64,000 bases of DNA, taken from contig CM049315.1 in assembly GCA_026874595.1 (NCBI GenBank), positions 73,081,416-73,145,415 of the forward strand. Reading direction: 5' to 3'. Origin of the DNA: Sipunculus nudus. Lineage: Eukaryota; Annelida; Sipuncula; Golfingiida; Sipunculidae. Of this stretch, positions 1,193 through 63,275 are shown one piece after another. The notes beneath the pieces are model-generated. The model searched no databases, was not told the DNA's origin, and saw only the letters and a list, made by a program, of their open reading frames with translations. Positions within the stretch are counted from its first letter, which is position 1, and every line of letters starts with the position of its first letter. Made by a program: the position numbers and the translations under genes.

Positions 1193-1291
1193 GTCGAGAT
1201 AGCTCAGGGAAAGGCTGTGTTATGTTTCAAGATTCTTTCTTTGAACCATCCCATTGCAATATACCGAAAGGATACCTTTGCACCCATTATG
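1193..1291 (+). CDS. Exon: C-terminal half of lectin-like domain 1
   Basis: The acceptor TTTTTGCAG precedes 1193 and the donor GTAGGT follows 1291; both ends are phase 1. It encodes GKGCVMFQ, then a second Cys, then PKGYLC, which matches the last strands of a CTLD (Cys...Cys...P.G.LC). The matching N-terminal half is not in the window. Confidence 0.65.
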
Positions 1292-2477
1292 GTAGGTCTG
1301 TCGAATAATTATTACAAGTAAGAAATCAATTTGCTTAATTCAAAATTCTAAATTCTGGAATAAAGTGTTTTAATTTTTTTTTTCAGAAAAATTTCGGCCG
1401 CCAGGAATACCATTGATAAACTGGATTCGTATTAGAAATATCAGCTACTCCGTTCATCATTCGAAGGCGGACTGGTGGACGGCGAAAGCAGCATGCAAAA
1501 CATGGGGTGGTCAAATAGCTGTGAAACCCGACCTATCGAGTATCACTGAAATTCTTAGAAAGAGAGACTTTGGAGTTGAAAAGTTATGGGTCGGTGCATA
1601 TTCGCTTCAAATAGAAATGGATGACAAGGGTAAAAAAATTGCAGATGATATTAATGAGAGAACCATATAATAATAAGTTCATATAGTGACTAGTGTGCTA
1701 ACGCAAAGGGTTGGTCTTGTTAATAGCTGCTTCGATGATGAGATCAGTCTATTATATTTACCGCTATTGGCAAAGCCCTGTTATTAACATGTATTCCTTT
1801 AAAATTAACTGTATTTTCTTTTTGCTTACTGTAGAAATAGATTTAAATTTTTCTTTCTGGGAGACTGGACTATCAACAGGCGATCAAGATAAGGGATGCA
1901 TAGTTGCAAAACTGAAAAATAAAAGTAACATTGTTTGGCAACCCTTTTTATGCAACAGCACAGCTGATGTGCTATGTAGTTCAGTGCACAAGTCAAACGA
2001 TTCTCATCGGAAAGGAATAAATACGTACACACCAACGCAAAGCGGTATGTATCGTATGGACTTCAGATCTAAAACTATTATTTATATATTATATGACTTT
2101 AGTTGTGCTTGGTTTGCCCTTGTACTTAAAACACTATCCAGGGAATGTACTTTATATAGCCTTACTTCTGTACGCCACACAATATTAACCAGGCAATGTA
2201 CGCCATGTAGCCTTTACCTTTGCAGACCAATTTGCTTCACGTCTCTTTTCTTTCATCTTGCGTTACAGTAGGCTCGTGCATTTTTTTCGTATGACCTTTT
2301 TATTGATAATTGTATCCGCCACTCTAGGTTATTTACAAAACTGGCAGATAAAAATGAAAATCTTATTCACTAACCACAGAGTCCGATATATAAGCTGCTA
2401 GTAAGGAGTATATTGAAAGCACAGCGATTGCGGGAACACTGACTGTTGGTAAAGACATATTTTATGGCATATATATG

Positions 2478-2508
<31 letters not shown>

Positions 2509-3583
2509 TGTACACATGTTAACACAAAAATGTATACAAGTACACAAGTGTACATGGATACAAGTTCATTTAATGATGAATGAATGCAATAATATGTGCA
2601 AGTCTAACTTATATCTATCTCTTTGTGCTGACATTGAAATTACATTTCAAACAAGTCACTTGCCCCTTTTATAAAAAAAATGTTTTCTCATATCATTTTC
2701 TATGATATATTGTTAATAACTTTATTTACAGGAAGAACCATTAATTCACCCATCCAAAACAGCAGTTTTTATGAGATTGTCGTTATGATATGCACCTGCT
2801 TTTTAGTGCTTATACACCTCGTCACATGTGTCCACAGCATTAGGTATCTTAGCGAGAGAGGGTAAGGAAAGCTTTAATCTTACGATAAAGCATATCATTT
2901 GCAATATAATTAACAATGAAAATGCATACACGTGTTTATATGTATAATAAACAAGGGATTTTATTTTTTTAAAAGATTTTTCATATGATTTAATATCTCC
3001 CTGGTCCGATGAGAGAACAATACCCTGTATATCATAACGTAACCTAGCCAATGTAAATTGCATACGTATGAAATATAAGAGAAATTGTATATCCTGTTTC
3101 TAGATATACCTCATCGACAGGCTATAATAACATGACAGATGGAACCATTTTGGAACCAGATTGGCAATTATTTGAACCAACTGGCCGAGACGCTGCACCC
3201 GGAGAACCCGTGGTAACGCACATTTTGTTTGGAGGAGTGAGACAATTGGACAGGCCCTTAGCGGAAGAGAATGCGGAGCAAATGAATGATGATGTCATGA
3301 AGTATAGTAAAAGACATGACCGCGAGTCGATTATAAATCCACCGAATCACTCTTGCACCGTATACGCAGATATAGAAGAGGGTGCATCCAATTTCATATC
3401 CCATGGGGAAGGTAAAATTATTATTCTGAAGATAAATATGGTTCAAGAGATGCTTTTATTGTACAAGTTAATAACAGAGAAGTTATTTATATTAAAGATA
3501 TTTAATATTTATGTAATATTTGGGGTTTTTTTGTAATTTTAGAATACGCGGAAATTCAGGATGTATTGGAGTTATCAACAAAG
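1193..3583 (+). CDS. C-type lectin-like transmembrane receptor (partial gene, six exons)
   Basis: Six exons join in frame: 1193-1291, 1387-1629, 1835-2044, 2732-2861, 3104-3411, 3543-3583. All introns have GT...AG ends and the phases match (1,1,1,2,1). The order is C-terminal half of CTLD1, CTLD2 over two exons, one membrane-spanning segment, then about 116 residues of tail. CTLD2 shows the family pattern: AKAACKTWGG, a WVGA core, then Cys pairs ending in FLC and VLC. The EPN/QPD and WND calcium-sugar motifs are absent, so classical sugar binding is unlikely. The tail has YNNM, TVYADI and EYAEI. Type I orientation is inferred. No signal peptide or stop is seen, because the gene starts upstream of the window and its last exon was not found. 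The function, immune or adhesion receptor, is inference. Confidence 0.72.
1387..1629 (+). CDS. Exon: N-terminal half of lectin-like domain 2
   Basis: A T-rich acceptor (TTTTCAG) precedes 1387 and GTAAAA follows 1629; both ends are phase 1. It encodes 81 residues including WWTAKAACKTWGGQIAV, the conserved W..A...C...GG.LA helix region of CTLDs, and LWVGAYSL, equivalent to the WIGL core. Reading through the donor gives only a short tail and a stop. Confidence 0.72.
1835..2044 (+). CDS. Exon: C-terminal half of lectin-like domain 2
   Basis: The acceptor CTTACTGTAG and donor GTATGT leave a 210-base exon, phase 1 at both ends. It encodes FWETGLSTGDQDKGC, then VWQPFLCNSTADVLC, placing three of the four CTLD cysteines as expected. 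NKSN and NST are possible N-glycosylation sites. A Ser/Thr-rich stalk follows (TYTPTQS). The open frame continues to 2271 but that part is intron. Confidence 0.7.
2468..2505. repeat. (TA)n microsatellite in intron
   Basis: A short TA array with one interruption, inside the intron between the lectin and membrane exons. Confidence 0.9.
2732..2861 (+). CDS. Exon: transmembrane segment of the lectin-like receptor
   Basis: The acceptor TTTATTTACAG and donor GTAAGG bound 130 bases (phase 1 in, phase 2 out). After a possible glycosylation site (QNSSF) come about 22 hydrophobic residues beginning EIVVMICTCFLVLIHLV, then a basic stop-transfer SIRYLSERG. This fits a single-pass membrane protein with the lectin domains outside. 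Confidence 0.68.
3104..3411 (+). CDS. Exon: cytoplasmic tail with YNNM and TVYADI motifs
   Basis: The acceptor GTTTCTAG and donor GTAAAA give a 308-base exon (phase 2 in, phase 1 out) that is open across its length. It encodes about 102 hydrophilic, acidic residues. Y-N-N-M near the start matches the YxxM and YxN patterns bound by PI3-kinase p85 and Grb2 SH2 domains in other animals. TVYADI near the end matches T-x-Y-x-x-[V/I], the ITSM form of the inhibitory tyrosine motif. Whether these are used in this organism is unknown. Confidence 0.65.
3543..3583 (+). CDS. Small exon: third tyrosine motif of the receptor tail
   Basis: The acceptor GTAATTTTAG and donor GTAAAC bound 41 bases, phase 1 in and phase 0 out. 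With the preceding G it reads EYAEIQDVLELSTK, adding a Y-x-x-I motif. At least one more coding exon must follow; none was identified downstream. Confidence 0.55.
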
Positions 3584-4633
3584 GTAAACTTTTCTTTAGT
3601 GTTCAAGAAAGCAAATATTTCACTGAAGTACACTCTTGATTTCATATTTTGTGACACACACACATCTTTTGAATAACTTATCAATTGAGAATGCTTTAAT
3701 ATCGATAGCAACGTATGGTTATTTTGTATGTACAATATACGCGAAAATATTTCTGATTAGAACTCGTGATTAATGGGTATTTCAAATATTTCGAACTAAT
3801 TTACAGGGATATGGTGTCATATGAATGCACACTTTACTTAAGTCCTCACACATGATGTGTAAGAAGAAAAAGGCATGTATTTATGGCAAGAAAACAGTTT
3901 TAAGGATGCTCACATTTTCACGGGAAATATTTTTAACTTAAAACTGTTTTCTACAGAAAGGTATACAATCGTCTTCTCACACACTTTAAGTGCATTTGTT
4001 TAAAAGGTTATTACGCAAGCAAACATACTTATATCAAATTAACAGAATATGAATTTCACAACAAGGTCTTAAAACATATACAGCTGTTGTACAAAATTTG
4101 CTTTATATGTTATAGTTATTTTACGAAGGATTTGCATCTTATGGGTGTCATGAAAAAATAGTGCATGCAGTACCATAAAACGTTCCACAAGAATACTCAA
4201 CGTCTTTTTTTCATGCAATGTATAATATAAATTAATACAAATGCTGGTCATTTTTATGTTTGAACTGAAAAAGCAGCGAAATCTAAGGGATTAATAAAAA
4301 TAATGCCGGTAAGCACGTTTAATATGCCATTTAATAAGATATTTAGACTAATTTCCAGGGTTGATATTGTTAATACATAATACATGGTTACAAGAATACA
4401 GTATGTTTTCATATGTGGTTATTATAATGTATCATTACTGGTAATTACTTATGAAACTCATTTACGTATCAACGCCTAAACAATGCTTGACGGTTATAAG
4501 ATATTAAAACTTATTTTACTTCTTTCCTTAATTCAGTCAAACACATTATGGTGTTTTGTGAGAAGACATGGCAAAGCAAATAACCACGTGGACGTAATGA
4601 AAGCTTATTGCTTTCACATGTTAAAGACCCACC

Positions 4634-4696
4634 ACCCGATCCGGCGGGATCGGGTCCCATGCGCACTGCGCATCTACCTTATATGGTAATATAAGG
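4634..4696. repeat. Three adjacent perfect hairpins
   Basis: Three palindromes follow each other: ACCCGATCC-GGCG-GGATCGGGT (4634-4655), ATGCGCA-C-TGCGCAT (4659-4673) and CCTTATAT-GGTA-ATATAAGG (4677-4696). Stems are 9, 7 and 8 bp without mismatches. The role is unknown. Confidence 0.85.
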
Positions 4697-5900
4697 AGCG
4701 ACATGGTGTTTGGCAACATTATCAAGCACGTGTACTTGCTTGAGCTCGGCAGATTACTGCAGGGCAGGTTTATTTAACCAGTGAAAAAGCATCAATTTTA
4801 GTTTCTCATCGCTGCTCCAAGTCTAAGTGCTTTGATGTCCCTTTGGATTATTGGATTACGTCAGCCTTCCGGTTTGACATGACCTCAAAACGGGCTCGCA
4901 CATGTTGACACTGACGGGCGCATGGCCGATCGAGTGATGTACGCAGTTATTATTTAACATGTTTCTTTGTAGGGATTTATAAAATGACACATCAAGTGAA
5001 CAAGGTAGGCGTACTAGTGGTCGTAACATAAATTACTTTAAAAAAAGGATTCCTTTAAAATACTGTAATAACAGTCCATGCACGACAGTGAAAAAACGAA
5101 CATGGCCGATGGCAGTGAAAAAAAATGGACATGACCGGCGACAGCATCGACCCGCTTGCTGTAGGCCCATACATGTTTGATTACCGCGCTTTATATGCCG
5201 TTTTGAAGACGCAGGCATATATAAATATATTTTGTTACGTTTTGTTTCAAATTTGTATATCGGCATGAAGGTAAAAAATATAATATTAATTGTCATACAT
5301 TTTGTTACCGCACTTGCGGGATTTGCTGAAACAAGACTTCGTTTAGAAGGAAGCCATGTGCCATGATGTGATATCGAACTACGAAGATTCTGAAAGTTTT
5401 GTGAACAAAATTATTTTGAAAGAAAATATGTAGTAATAGTATGACACTAAAACATTAATGTCTCTATAGAGAATATTATTAGCCTGATTTAGATGTATTA
5501 AGATTATCGACCACATGTCAGCCAACTGTTTTTCTTTTACGAAATATTTCCATATTTACCAGATACATACACTGGACTTGTATCTTTACGAATTTGCATA
5601 GGCAGAAATGAATAAAGATTTACAGAATCTGAGTATTTATATTTTTAGCTCTTTATATGCCTCTTGAACTTGTAACGTTGCGGTTTTGACATGCAACAAT
5701 GTAACACCACATCTGTTCAATGCGTGCGTGCACAAACAGATGGAAGTTTGTTATGACGAGCAGAAGGCCCATATGATCAAATGACAGTGACATTTCATGA
5801 AACAATATAATATTGAATGACGCTTGTTATTGGTTCATAACTGAAATGAGATTGTTTGGAGTCCCGGGTGTGTAATCCTCTGCTAAGAGAAATACAAGAA

Positions 5901-5913
5901 CCCCCCCCCCCCC
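5901..5913. repeat. Poly-C run
   Basis: Thirteen C residues followed by an A-rich tract; simple sequence. Confidence 0.9.
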
Positions 5914-7580
5914 AACAAAAAAAAACGAAGTTTGGATATATACATGATGTATATGTATATTTACATGCATGCATACCTACATGAATGTATCAATCAATGT
6001 GTGCTATGAAATATGAGGAACAAATATTTATAGTATCATATATGTCCAACTAATACCAGGAGCAGTGAAGACAGACGTGCAAAAAGAATCCTACATCCGC
6101 AACTGAAAAGTAAACCAAATTTCTCCTTATCTCCAGACTTATCTCTCCTCAAGATTTCACAGACGTTATACAAGACAAACAGAAAAAGGGGTGAACGCAT
6201 AACCTTATTGAAAATGTATATTTTTTATATGCTTTAACCCGGTGCGGGAAACCTGCATGAACAAACCTGATATATTTTATTGTTGTAAAGTGGACATCTA
6301 TGTTTTCAAAGACACCTGGCCAGGGAACGCTAAAAATGACCTATTAATATATCCTTGTCTTGAATTCAACTCTTATGTGGTAGTGCTTTATTAGGTAATC
6401 CTGATTAATTGTATATGTTCAAGCTGTACTATTAACTTTAAATGTACAGAACCACTTAGTGGGCCAGTATATTCATTTGTTTAACATCATGTGGACAATC
6501 ACCCCGGGTGTGTTTGTTCGGCCATATTAATTCTTCTTTTGATTACTAAGTATGATACATATTGGCTTCATATTTTGAACACAGCTTGATTGCTTCATCT
6601 AAATTCACTCTGAAGCTTTCATCATTGTACCTTATTTAGTAATATTGCAATTGTGATTTAAGTGGAATTTCTATGACAGTTTAAGATCTTAACTTTGTTA
6701 TCAATTCTACAGTAAGAAATAACTTTACATTAGTTTTATAAAATTTTCTGCTTGTAAAATTTTTGGGTCACATTTCATGTGTTTGTGAAGTTTCATTCAA
6801 TTTCATAAAGTAGTTTTTGTATAATGTGTCAGTTACATTAAGAAACACAAGTTTATGTTTTCTGCAGTCATAGTATATGTAAGTCTATCTCAACATGATG
6901 CTACCAGCCTTAATAAGGAACCAATCAGCTTCATGCTGGTAGCGTCAGGGTTATCTGTAATGAGGCTGCTAGATGTCTGGGCAGCGACAGATTTGAATTG
7001 ACCACTGCGCTGGACACCAAACTGACTGGTTAGCATACTGTGAACATGTATTTATCAATATACTGAAGTCTCTACCAGCTGATGACCTACCGTTTGTGCT
7101 TGCTAATTCCACACGAAAAAAAAGCTCCCGCGACCGCTACAACAGTTAGGTGACCTTATCCAGACAGTTGGAAAATAAACCAATAGCATTCTTCATGTTT
7201 TTAATCAGGCGAAGGAACAAAAACCTAATTCGCCGAATCTGTATACTGACCATGCAGGCTTCATACGCCAACACAGAGAAATGTTCTGATAATTATCTAG
7301 AATAAGTGGTTTAAAGGCCTACTTCCATGAAAAAAATAAAATGAAATACTACTGAAGGTTTATTCATTTACATGTATATGTATAAATTATGGTATTATAA
7401 AATCAAGCTTTGCGCATTTAACCGTTAAAATTTAAATCGAAAGACCCGTAATCCACCCCACTCAGGGGCCCCAAGCCAAACAGCAGCGTCCTGGCCAAGG
7501 CGATTGTGACGTCACAACCAGAACACACCGGGCGGTATTGTAATGGCATCAGTTGAGTTTAACACGATCTGAGATAAAAT

Positions 7581-22060: not shown

Positions 22061-22486
22061 TTTCTTTAATAAAAATCTTTTCATAAATGTGGACCAAAAT
22101 AAAATGAATAATAATTAAATTAAAAAATATTTTTATATTTCATTATTTGTTCAAATTTTATAATCCATTCTTTGAAGTGTAAAATAATTTTTAACATATA
22201 TTTAAAAAAAATATAGCTTTACAGAAGCGAATCCAAGTTAGGGTGTGGGGAGGTCCGAAACCCGTTTTTCATAACAGTTTCGCGGCCGGGAACCCCTTTT
22301 CCATATACCTGCTCACATTTTCATTAGCAATTGCCATTCGGCCTCTTTGGTTAGGACCCCCCCCCCCCCTTCCCATTTTACCATATCAAGGATCCATCCC
22401 TGCTATAAGAACATGCATACCATTAATATATGTTGTTACGGGGTGACAAAAAAGCGGACCGAACTGTATCGCTACACTCTAAAATG

Positions 22487-49903: not shown

Positions 49904-51880
49904 GGGGGGGGGGGGGGGGGGGGGTCGGCCGGTACATCGTACCGGGGCCAAAAAGGGCCCGGGCTGGCGAAAAATAAAAAAGTTGGAAGTATGGAAGACT
50001 CATCTAAATTATTTATTTAAGTGACATATTGATCTTAATCCGGATTCCGGAGTGTAAAGAATGGGCCCGGCTGATTTTCGGGATTTTCACAGGAGCCTAT
50101 ATGTAATGCATGAACATTATATTTTTAACGTGTTTATTAAGTGGAACCAGTTGTTAAAGGGGACCCTATAGTGAAAATATTGTCCAATAAAAAGTTTATA
50201 AATGAAAATAAGGAAGACTTTCTTTTTTGCAATAACTTTTACATGTTTTGAATCAGGTAGGTCTGTGGGGCCCGGTCCACCAAGGAGTTGTATTAGGCCT
50301 GGGGACTATGTATATTTTATTTGTTTATCTGTTACATGGTTTCAATGAGGAGGATGTGAGGTGGCCTTTGGAGGCCAAAGGATTTATCAGTCTAAAAATT
50401 ACTTTAAATAGCAATTTCTTTTGGCTTGTGTGTATCTTTTTGTATGACTTTAATCATGCGGGACCGTTCAAAGGGGCCATAGTTTTCTGGGGAAGTTGGA
50501 CTTAAATACATAAAAAATGGAAAATGTATAATTAGTTTTAAGTGTCATTCTGCTTTTAATCCAGACTGATCGCTGCGAAGTTTTTTTTTTTTTTTGGGGG
50601 GGGGAGGGGGTGTCAAAGGGGGCCCGGCCTGGTGAAAGTGTCTTAATTAAGGCCCAAAAAAAACTGGAAATAGGCCTATGGGGAGACTTTTATATTTGAG
50701 ATATATGTTTGAACAGCTTCTACAAAAAGGTCTTTCAGCAAATTGAACCTGATCAAGAATTTTTTAAGGACGACAATGGCACAAGGTCGTCTTGCTGATT
50801 TGCCAGATTGAGTCGAAACTTGCCCGATCAATTGATTTCGATCTTGTCATCAGAAACTTTTCACAAAGAAAGGCAAGAAAAGCCCATTTTTAGCACAGCT
50901 GACGGTCAGCAATGCCAAGAATGGGCCTCGGTATAACAGCATACATATCATAACCGTCATTCCTTGATGCTATATGACTAATGAGCTCTCCTTGAAAATC
51001 TAAATTATATTTTAGCTGTATTGTTAACTATGAGTTATTACACGTTTACTATAATTGGTCCAATCTGAGTAAAACAATATTCACAATCAGCAGTGATAAT
51101 TTCTCTTTCAATGGCCTTGCAATTAATGTATTCATTATAATTGTGTTTGCCTACTTTTTAATATCGATGTAAGCAGATGTTGGCACCTAAATTCAGTTGC
51201 TTTGATTAAAATGATTATGTAAACTCCTAAACTGCCATTTAGGTTTCTGAGTAAAAACACATCCACAGGCGCCTGTGGTTTGGTTATTGTCCGCATGAAG
51301 TGTTTATTTAAAAGAAAGTACACTTCTTGTCAGCCTGTCACCAAACGAAATATGAAAACGATTCCTAATGCCCATTATACAGAATTTATCCATAGATGAC
51401 CAGGAACTTTTCCCGAAAAAAATTGCTAAAATTTCCCACAAGTGGCTGCACCAAGGGTCCAATGATATCTGTATGGACAGTTTAATCGGCTAGGTTATAC
51501 CGTATGTGGCCTCGACTACATTTCATGTTTCTATTTCTTTAAAGCTATGATACATATTGAAATTTATATCCACATTACCATTAACTCCATATCCCCCATC
51601 ACCATGCACTATTTGGATAATCAAACGGCTCTGTTATTTAGATCCTTAGACTCTTTTGGACATTTTGTATTTCTTTTCTATTTTCTTATGCGGTGCTTTC
51701 AATAAAATGTTCTCAGTTACGTGTCACAAATAAGGCAAATTGTGCTCATCAGCTCCACAATAGGCAATTGACCTATTGGTCACCTATAATTTATTTTAAT
51801 ATGTGCCACGCATATTTTTAAATTTGATTTTCTCGGGTTTTTAATTACGTGTATTCCTATTTTCATAGTTTTTCAATATA

Positions 51881-51917
<37 letters not shown>

Positions 51918-51950
51918 GTGCTGGGAGGGGGCAGGGCCGCAGGGGCTCGG
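49904..51950. mobile_element. About 2 kb of other sequence splitting the CR1-type element
   Basis: It starts with a G21 run (49904-49924) and ends with (TA)n then (ATA)n (51878-51917) and a short GC-rich piece. Inside, GGGCCCGG-type blocks recur at about 49965, 50265 and 50625, suggesting a diverged internal repeat. No coding sequence, inverted ends or target duplication seen. Insertion is inferred from the retrotransposon protein resuming on the far side. Confidence 0.5.
51878..51917. repeat. (TA)n-(ATA)n microsatellite
   Basis: TA units passing into about nine ATA units directly upstream of the reverse-transcriptase segment. It resembles the 3' tail type of this retrotransposon family. Confidence 0.9.
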
Positions 51951-53976
51951 CAACGTTTTTGTACCGCCTTAAAAGAATCCTCTCGGAGGCCCTGGCTGTA
52001 GTGAAAGCAGTCATTTATCAGCCTAAGAGACAATTCTACATGGATAAGATTGACTCCATTTCGTCATCAAAACAGCTGTTTTCTGTGTCTGGTGAGCTTC
52101 AGGGCAAGTCCCGGATTATACCTTTGCCAATTGATATACCTCGCTGTGACCTTCCGAAACGTTTCTGTGACTTTTTCTTGGCCAAGATTGAAGGTATCCG
52201 TCGGGAACTTGACTCTTGTGTATGTGAACCTCCTAATTTTGATATTTATGATGGTCCCACTATGTCCTGGTTTACACCAGGGACTGTTCAGGAGATACAT
52301 GAACTTATAATGTCATCACCAACAAAAAGCTGTATACTTGATCCCTTCCATACTCCCCTTCTTAAGCAATGCATAGATGACCTTACTCCATTGATTACAT
52401 TCATTATAAATATCTCTCTATCAACAGGTACAGTCCCTTTTCAGTTTACAGAGGCTGTCCTGACCCCACTTTTGAAGAAGCTGGGATTAGATCCAAATGA
52501 CCTAAAACATTTTAGGCCAGTTTCAAACCTTCCCTTCGTTTATAAAATCCTTGAGAAGACTATTTTTAAAGAGGTTACAATGTCATCTTTATGAAAATAG
52601 CTTAATGGAAATCCATCAGTCCGCGTGTAGAAGGCACCATATAGCACAGAGACCGCCGTACTGAGTGTCATGGATGTTCTACTGATGGCGGCAGACGAGA
52701 GACTCGTTTCTCTCCTAGTATTGTTGGACCTCAGTGCAGCGTTTGACACGCTTGATCATTGCATTTTGCTTAAAAGACTAGAAATTACCTTTGGTATACA
52801 CGGCACCGCGCTTTCATGGTTTACTTCATACCTTGCCAATCGTTCCCAAGCTGTTATGGTCGACGGTAGAAAATCAGACCCATGTACTTTGTTGTATGGG
52901 GTTCCCCAGGGATCCGTGTTAAGACCTATATTGTTCACTTTATATTCACAGCCCCTATCTCGCATAATATCCGCACATGATTGTTCTTTTCATAAGTATG
53001 CTGATGACACTGAACTGTCAAAATGTAGTCAACCAGGTGAGTTCAGCTATTTTTAGTTAAGCATACAAGCTTGTATTGAGGATATACTATCATGGATGAC
53101 CAGCAACAAACTTAAATTGAATACTGACAAGACTGAAATTATGCCTGTCGGATCTAAACCCCTTCTAAGGATGACTCACAATGAGTTTATTAGCATTGGG
53201 GGCTGCACTGTTCCTTTACAAAATTCAGTGAAGTATCTAGGTGTTAAGATTGATCGTAATTTTTCAATGCATGATTATTTTAGTAGTTTATGTCGTGCGG
53301 CCTTTCTCGAGCTCCGCCGTATAGCTTCAATCCGGCGTTTCCTCTCTATTAATGCGTGTTGTCGGTTCATTTGCGCCACAGTAATATCTCGCCTGGATTA
53401 CTGTAATTCAGTTCTTGCTGGGTTACCTGCAGAGCAAGTCTCGCGGCTACAGATGGTCCAGAGTAATGCTGCGCGTCTCATTCTTAAGAAGCGTAAGACC
53501 GACCACGTCACCCCGCTGCTCAAACGGCTTCCCGTCAAGTACCGCGTACAATACAAAATTGCTGTTTTTGTTTACCGCCGTATTGATGACTCACTTTCAT
53601 CATATTTGACTAAAAAAATAATAACCTAACGGCCTTTGCATACGCTGCCCTCGGCTGGCGGACATCTTCTTAAAGTACCAAAGTGTAATATGGAAATCGG
53701 TGAACGTTCCTTCCGTCTCATAGCCCCAAAAGTTTGGAATTCACTTCCCATTACACTTAGAAAATCTCCAACTCTTGTATCATTTAAAACTAATTGCAAG
53801 CTTTTTGTAATTAATATGCATCACTTTTTTTCTGGGTCAGGCACAGGGAGTAGATTTCAATGAAATTGTATGCGAGTATGTGTGTTTTTGTGTGTGTGTG
53901 TGAATTGCGCTGAGTCCGACCATCGGAGAATTGGCGCTATGTAAAGACTATATTATTATTATTATTATTATTATTA
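51950..53976 (+). pseudogene. CR1/L2-type non-LTR retrotransposon, reverse transcriptase and 3' end
   Basis: Codes for a reverse transcriptase in the expected order: KSCILDPFHTPLLKQC, DLKHFRPVSNLPFVYKILEK, LVLLDLSAAFDTLDHCILL, GVPQGSVLRPILFTLYS, HKYADDTELS (catalytic A-DD box), NKLKLNTDKTEIM, VKYLGVKID and the C-terminal SFRLIAPKVWNSLP. It is dead: frameshifts near 52590 and 52650, TAG at 53054 and TAA at 53627 in frame. The 3' end TTGGCGCTATGTAAAGACTA followed by (ATT)n to 53976 is typical of CR1/L2-type elements, which end in short microsatellites. The 5' part lies at 49430-49903. Confidence 0.92.
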
Positions 53977-55162: not shown

Positions 55163-55327
55163 TTAGTTTACAGAAGATGAATAGGTTCTGCATTTCCACT
55201 GGTTGCTCAGGTAACGGGTTTTGAAGACCTCTTTCTTAACTGAGACGCAGGTCTGATGGAACCAGCCTAAGCATGTGGAACATTGAACGATTCTTACCTC
55301 TCCATTGTCGGGCAACCTATATATACA
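55163..55327 (-). pseudogene. PHD-finger remnant
   Basis: Minus strand: CIYRLPDNGEVRIVQCSTCL then GWFHQTCVSVKKEVFKTRY and QWKCRTY. This is the Cys4-His-Cys3 PHD pattern (C.C...C..C..WFH..C...W.C..C), but the second and last cysteines are Tyr (C-I-Y and C-R-T-Y). PHD fingers occur in ORF1 of some CR1-like retrotransposons, and a dead CR1/L2-type element lies 1.2 kb away. It could therefore be an ORF1 relic or an exon of a chromatin protein. Confidence 0.6.

Positions 55328-58649: not shown

Positions 58650-63275
<4,626 letters not shown>

Follow-up and report, generated by a model that had tools for sequence, protein, structure and literature searches.

The 64,000-nucleotide stretch of Sipunculus nudus DNA analysed in this study (the window) probably contains a genuine gene of an already known type, which we read, with somewhat better than even odds (roughly 0.55), as encoding a type I receptor with at least two C-type lectin-like domains (CTLDs) and a cytoplasmic tail in which two tyrosine motifs jointly dock a tandem-SH2 protein, with a slight lean towards a kinase of the Syk/Shark type. 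The six exons in view represent the 3' part of the gene, and both of its ends lie outside view (Table 1). The confidence placed in this reading and in the rival readings discussed below overlaps, and the figures do not sum to 1.

Table 1. Features of the window, with their positions, strands and the evidence on which each assignment is based
Feature	Position	Strand	Basis
Exon, C-terminal half of first CTLD (KGC...C-x7-C), phases 1-1	1193-1291	+	Open frame, splice borders, cysteine spacing
Exon, first half of second CTLD (WWTAKAACKTWGGQIA, LWVGA), phases 1-1	1387-1629	+	Frame, patterns, PDB matches with next exon
Exon, second half of second CTLD (GC...W...C-x7-C) and start of stalk, phases 1-1	1835-2044	+	Frame, patterns, Pfam match with preceding exon
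Exon encoding the stalk, the only transmembrane helix (IVVMICTCFLVLIHLVTCV) and the juxtamembrane residues RYLSERG, phases 1-2	2732-2861	+	Hydropathy
Exon encoding the cytoplasmic tail, including YNNM (3123-3134) and TVYADI (3357-3374), phases 2-1	3104-3411	+	Exon finder; other frames with 8 stops each
Probable exon, EEYAEIQDVLELSTK in context, phase-0 donor	3543-3583	+	Weakest of the six
Alternative small open exon GIYKMTHQVNK, could replace 3543-3583 after the tail exon	4973-5004	+	Good borders
Ionotropic glutamate receptor, C-terminal exons (ligand-binding lobe, last membrane helix)	58659-58934 and 60268-60537	-	PDB match
Reverse transcriptase RVT_1	52502-53251 (ORFs 51869-53626)	+	Pfam, E 7.1e-24
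Weak PHD-finger match	55187-55300	-	Pfam, E 0.00047, 20.6 bits (cut-off 24)

When joined, the six forward-strand exons give 343 codons interrupted by neither a stop nor a frameshift, with intron phases of 1, 1, 1, 2 and 1, a terminal donor of phase 0 and intact AG/GT borders throughout, and both the number and the coordinates of the phase-compatible exons proposed in an earlier sequence-only reading proved right. Compared with every forward-strand AG and GT in the window, the acceptors of the six exons ranked between the 87th and 99.6th percentiles and the donors between the 93rd and 99.7th, as scored with simple generic matrices not trained on the source species. The alternative frames of the four middle exons carried 2-8 stops each, while a second frame was also open in exon 1193-1291 and all three frames were open in the 41-nt exon 3543-3583. 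A crude exon finder run on both strands returned 12 non-overlapping candidates over its threshold, the highest being an exon of a glutamate receptor (33.7), followed by the tail exon (29.4), for which the start was placed at 3121 (versus 3104 in the gene model). The finder recovered two of the six exons, chose for the exon starting at 1387 a read-through to a stop at 1670, and left four of the six below threshold.

It is distinctly unlikely, in our judgement, that the exons do not all belong to one gene, with exon 3543-3583 being spurious, or that the gene is a degenerating copy. Exon 3543-3583, which supplies the motif EEYAEI, is nevertheless the least certain part of the gene model, and several observations would agree with its being spurious. 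In addition to being open in all frames, it has an acceptor at the 87th percentile, and 3 of 20 mini-exons found by chance on the forward strand between 4000 and 63000 also contained a YxxI/L/V motif. Thirteen exons were able to follow the tail exon within 3412-6000; 12 of these end in a stop (3543-3583 is counted here, its donor score of 3.0, as rounded, being evidently just below threshold), and the remaining one, 4973-5004, ends in a donor of at least 3.0 and has better borders than 3543-3583. The failure of the crude finder on four of the six exons points the same way, as does the lack of a convincing last exon downstream: when phase-0 exons starting between 3600 and 16000 were ranked, none of the best 30 was convincing. 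Given the phase-0 donor at 3583, the gene would have at least one further exon, or the intron would be read through to a stop. Read onward, the exon reaches a stop at 3676 and an AATAAA stands at 4293, so that an unspliced gene ending is possible. What argues against a spurious exon or a degenerating copy is that the frame is kept across all six exons, with no damaged border or internal stop, and that the YAEI of the small exon echoes the YADI of the tail exon. At the other end of the gene, the first half of the first CTLD presumably lies upstream of the window; a search for it in 1-1192 gave a sole candidate above threshold, which comprised 15 codons (score 4.6) and had no CTLD features. Two AT-dinucleotide arrays (926-985 and 1091-1156) are located just upstream of exon 1193-1291.

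Judged from the sequence, the assignment of the extracellular part to CTLDs is plausible, and weak by profile. The second CTLD (1387-1629 joined to 1835-2044) matched Pfam Lectin_C (PF00059) with 19.2 bits (E 0.0022) and the whole joined protein with 18.1 bits, compared to a curated cut-off of 22.6, and by the cut-off rule the protein is therefore not filed as a Lectin_C member. No Pfam family was found up to E 1 in the unspliced forward frames of 1-9 kb, which makes the profile match conditional on splicing. Matches to PDB sequences were uniform in kind: all nine matches of the second CTLD up to E 10 were to CTLD proteins (MRC2, codakine, NKG2D and CD69), comprising four to MRC2 at E 0.0019-0.0022 and five others at E 0.015-0.51, and all five matches of the longer protein were to CTLDs as well (best E 0.0056). 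Four of five CTLD patterns, all composed after the gene had been seen, matched the gene; three of these four were unique to it in six frames, one also occurred in unrelated sequence on the minus strand, and the fifth pattern (WIG...W..G type) matched nowhere in six frames, the gene included. The cysteine spacing of exon 1193-1291 (GC, C-x7-C) resembles that of the second CTLD; on its own, this exon gave no Lectin_C profile match and only a spurious match at E 0.042. Neither EPN/QPD nor WND was seen by eye, and ETGLSTGDQD and VWQPF stand at about the corresponding places, as located without a structural alignment. Classical Ca2+-dependent sugar binding is therefore not expected, although bivalve CTLDs with aberrant motifs are described as still able to bind in the available text of PMC12842671. 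The 195 extracellular residues in view contain six N-glycosylation sequons.

The best 19-residue hydrophobic stretch of the protein has a mean Kyte-Doolittle value of 2.82, compared to 0.96 for the runner-up, and the transmembrane helix (IVVMICTCFLVLIHLVTCV) contains no K, R, D or E, which makes pairing with an adaptor through a charged residue unlikely. For the protein to be type I, a signal peptide would have to lie upstream of the window. Beyond the helix, 126 tail residues are in view, of which 23 are D/E, 10 are K/R and six are tyrosines. YNNM fits both YxxM and YxN, TVYADI fits the ITSM pattern TxYxx[VI] (one site), and EEYAEI, in which the codon preceding the tyrosine straddles the intron 3411/3543, fits YxxI; a strict ITIM ([S/I/V/L]xYxx[I/L/V]) is absent from the 126 residues. 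YADI and YAEI are spaced 13 residues apart (YADI-x13-YAEI), with the intron falling inside the pair. The ITAM consensus is YxxI/L x6-12 YxxI/L, and the tail contains no pair at a spacing of 6-12, the observed 13 being one past the usual limit. In a hemITAM, the tyrosine is preceded by an acidic stretch and a glycine. In EEYAEI the +3 residue is I and the tyrosine directly follows an E, so that the site does not correspond to a hemITAM, which the available text of PMC5932189 gives as a single YxxL.

The first reading of this DNA had described a lectin-like membrane receptor with CTLDs, one membrane helix and a tail carrying three different tyrosine motifs, one of them of ITSM type. Such a receptor is supported by the CTLD signature, the helix and the motifs taken together, and the single helix by the one strong hydrophobic stretch. 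The plural in CTLDs holds in part, since one domain (the second) is complete and the first is seen only as its C-terminal half. YNNM, TVYADI and EYAEI are all present as text; however, TVYADI and EYAEI could together make up a single ITAM-like unit. The ITSM fit of TVYADI stands.

When the tail was shuffled 100,000 times, 4.1% of the shuffles contained an ITSM, 13.3% YxxM, 29.2% YxN and 23.0% an ITIM; at least two YxxI/L/V sites were present in 27.5%, an ITAM-like pair in 2.2% at a spacing of 6-12 or 2.5% at 6-13, and an ITSM together with two YxxI/L/V sites and YxxM in 0.26%. Because the motif set was picked after the sequence had been seen, these figures overstate the case, and the rarity of the motifs relative to chance is only moderate. 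The possibility that the tail is a homologue of a known protein was dropped, as it matched no PDB sequence and no Pfam family up to E 10.

This modest rarity of a set chosen post hoc, along with the fact that four of the six tail tyrosines fall outside the YADI/YAEI pair, would also suit an endocytic or adhesion receptor of mannose-receptor-like kind, in which most of the tyrosines would serve internalisation or be incidental, and there would be no immune switch. The best PDB matches, to MRC2 at E 0.0019, belong to the mannose-receptor family (MRC2/Endo180), and members of that family share tandem CTLDs and type I topology with the gene described here. In the mannose-receptor family, N-terminal cysteine-rich and FNII domains precede the CTLDs. 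MRC1 and DEC-205 are listed without an evident ITAM or ITIM in the available text of PMC5932189. We nonetheless consider a purely endocytic or adhesive role unlikely, as NPxY is absent from the tail residues in view, and YADI/YAEI and the CD28-like YNNM sit in good kinase-substrate and SH2 contexts.

In the reading that we favour, the CTLDs would recognise a ligand, either protein or glycan, in the absence of a classical Ca2+/EPN-WND site, and clustering by the ligand would lead to phosphorylation of the tail by Src-family kinases. Tyrosine sites of this type are phosphorylated by Src-family kinases, and once phosphorylated, YxxM binds PI3K p85, YxN binds Grb2-type SH2 domains and paired YxxI/L motifs bind tandem-SH2 proteins. 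In this scheme, pYNNM would dock PI3K p85 or Grb2-type SH2 domains, and the pYADI/pYAEI pair would jointly engage a tandem-SH2 protein. The pair would favour a Syk/Shark-type kinase (activating or phagocytic) slightly over an SHP/Corkscrew phosphatase (inhibitory). The lean is based on the use of Syk by the reviewed mollusc CTLD receptors and on a spacing near that of Draper; since the YADI/YAEI spacing is one past the ITAM limit and close to that of Draper, reading the tail as ITAM-like is no worse supported than reading it in ITIM/SHP terms.

The opposite outcome, in which phosphorylated TVYADI (as an ITSM) together with EEYAEI recruits a phosphatase of the SHP-2/Corkscrew type and dampens haemocyte activation, is a tentative and somewhat unlikely alternative. 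TVYADI also fits a SHP2 SH2 preference, which speaks for an inhibitory receptor, and one TxYxx[VI] site is shared with the vertebrate ITIM/ITSM receptors (PD-1, the SLAM family and DCIR). By its exact match to the ITSM, which is the consensus given in the available text of PMC8211107 and is found in only the 4.1% of tail shuffles noted above, TVYADI may keep a phosphatase open as the binding partner. Inhibitory signalling by IgIT in oyster haemocytes has been published, according to a title cited in PMC11999971, and the phosphatase Corkscrew is named within the Draper module in the available text of PMC8092387. However, the gene differs from PD-1, the SLAM family and DCIR in having no strict ITIM and a tail for which the PDB gave no match up to E 10; the residue at -2 in EEYAEI is E, and neither T nor S/I/V/L; and the reviewed oyster CTLD receptors with tail motifs signal via Syk, as far as the available texts describe them. 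A more elaborate proposal, which we regard as improbable, treats YNNM as a CD28-like costimulatory site, TVYADI as a switch and the mini-exon as the carrier of a second YxxI, such that inclusion or skipping of 3543-3583 toggles the tandem-SH2 unit; if this were true, splicing would control a switch between activator and inhibitor within one receptor, where other systems use a pair.

Comparisons with described receptors, made here by description from the available parts of the cited articles, place the gene near several of them. The oyster proteins CgCLec-TM1 and CgCLec-HTM have a CTLD, a membrane helix and a hemITAM and signal through Syk and ERK to IL-17, and additionally to TNF in the case of CgCLec-HTM (PMC13027682, PMC12842671). 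Both resemble the gene described here in that a CTLD, a membrane helix and a tail tyrosine motif occur together, and in CgCLec-HTM the helix is likewise C-terminal to the CTLD. CgCLec-HTM is described as single-domain with QPS/WHD, CgCLec-TM1 as having one carbohydrate-recognition domain, and both as carrying one hemITAM, whereas the gene described here encodes two or more CTLDs that lack these site motifs, together with three sites of the YxxI/M type. The razor clam ScCTL-1, a protein of four CTLDs whose membrane helix is C-terminal, shares the multi-CTLD layout and the helix position but differs in its CTLD site motifs, and no tail motif is described for it in the available text of PMC12842671. 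Draper and MEGF10 are single-pass proteins with two spaced YxxI/L sites in the tail (YXXI-X11-YXXL in Draper-I compared to YADI-X13-YAEI here; PMC8092387, PMC13148388), and Draper-II has an insertion within its YXXI-YXXL unit, where an intron falls inside the corresponding unit here. In contrast, the EMI/EGF ectodomain and the tail NPxY of Draper/MEGF10 are both absent from the part of the gene in view.

Pfam searches of the window covered the forward strand at 1-29 and 44-54 kb, and the minus strand at 54-64 kb. Judged by its introns, the glutamate receptor and the CTLD, the sequence very likely comes from an animal genome. The two glutamate-receptor exons, which lie approximately 55 kb downstream of the lectin-like gene on the minus strand, matched 256 PDB sequences up to E 0.001 when joined (best match the kainate receptor GluK2, E 4.7e-12) and went unrecognised by Pfam both joined and in unspliced frames. 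The element containing RVT_1 is probably a non-LTR retrotransposon. Near-identical frames (e.g. ITCSYTLARWMQIICKKMLPYIYIY) are encoded three times, at about 45.1-45.8, 46.0-46.7 and 46.9-47.7 kb, with the copies about 0.92 kb apart. Neither RNA families (at the gathering threshold) nor tRNAs were found.

The layout of the receptor had initially been taken to suggest a paired-receptor-like immune system, a proposal that the 64 kb do not sustain, as BLAST and pattern searches revealed neither a second CTLD gene nor a partner with a charged helix. When four parts of the gene were compared by BLAST with 1637 stop-to-stop frames of the window (at least 25 residues each), no second CTLD gene was found, and the sole non-self match below E 0.01 linked the membrane helix to a hydrophobic minus-strand frame in the gene's own intron (2508-2603, E 3.7e-4). 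A weak match to the CTLD end of the first exon occurs on the forward strand at 22217-22324 (33% over 33 residues, E 0.13) and does not have the CTLD cysteine pattern. The pattern search of prokaryotic contigs gave 28 matches, of which none was confirmed, as expected for an animal gene.

Signalling through tyrosine motifs outside vertebrates is not new, having already been described in molluscs, tunicates, cnidarians and amphioxus. In the parts of the literature available here, tyrosine-based tails are reported for the oyster IgIT receptors (PMC11999971, in which the motif of CgIgIT2 is called an ITAM, yet a cited title says that IgIT signalling inhibits), for Botryllus FcoR and Hydractinia Alr (PMC12065747) and for amphioxus BbLcLRR (PMC8211107). 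An oyster Siglec homologue is described in PMC5877582, whose available text assigns ITIMs to mammalian Siglecs and mentions none for the oyster protein. C-type-lectin-like proteins number mostly more than 100 in gastropods and about 200 in bivalves (300-500 in many species), with few in cephalopods, according to the available text of PMC10140915. No published description of the three motifs in this order with two CTLDs was found, in a search that was not aimed at the combination and in which subscription journals were sparsely represented.

The gene alone does not show a paired-receptor system. If the tail works as drawn, however, the gene would add one more multi-CTLD, multi-tyrosine receptor to the ITAM/ITIM-type signallers of invertebrates, and its tail would provide a natural setting in which to see whether two YxxI motifs 13 residues apart bring in a Syk/Shark kinase or an SHP phosphatase.
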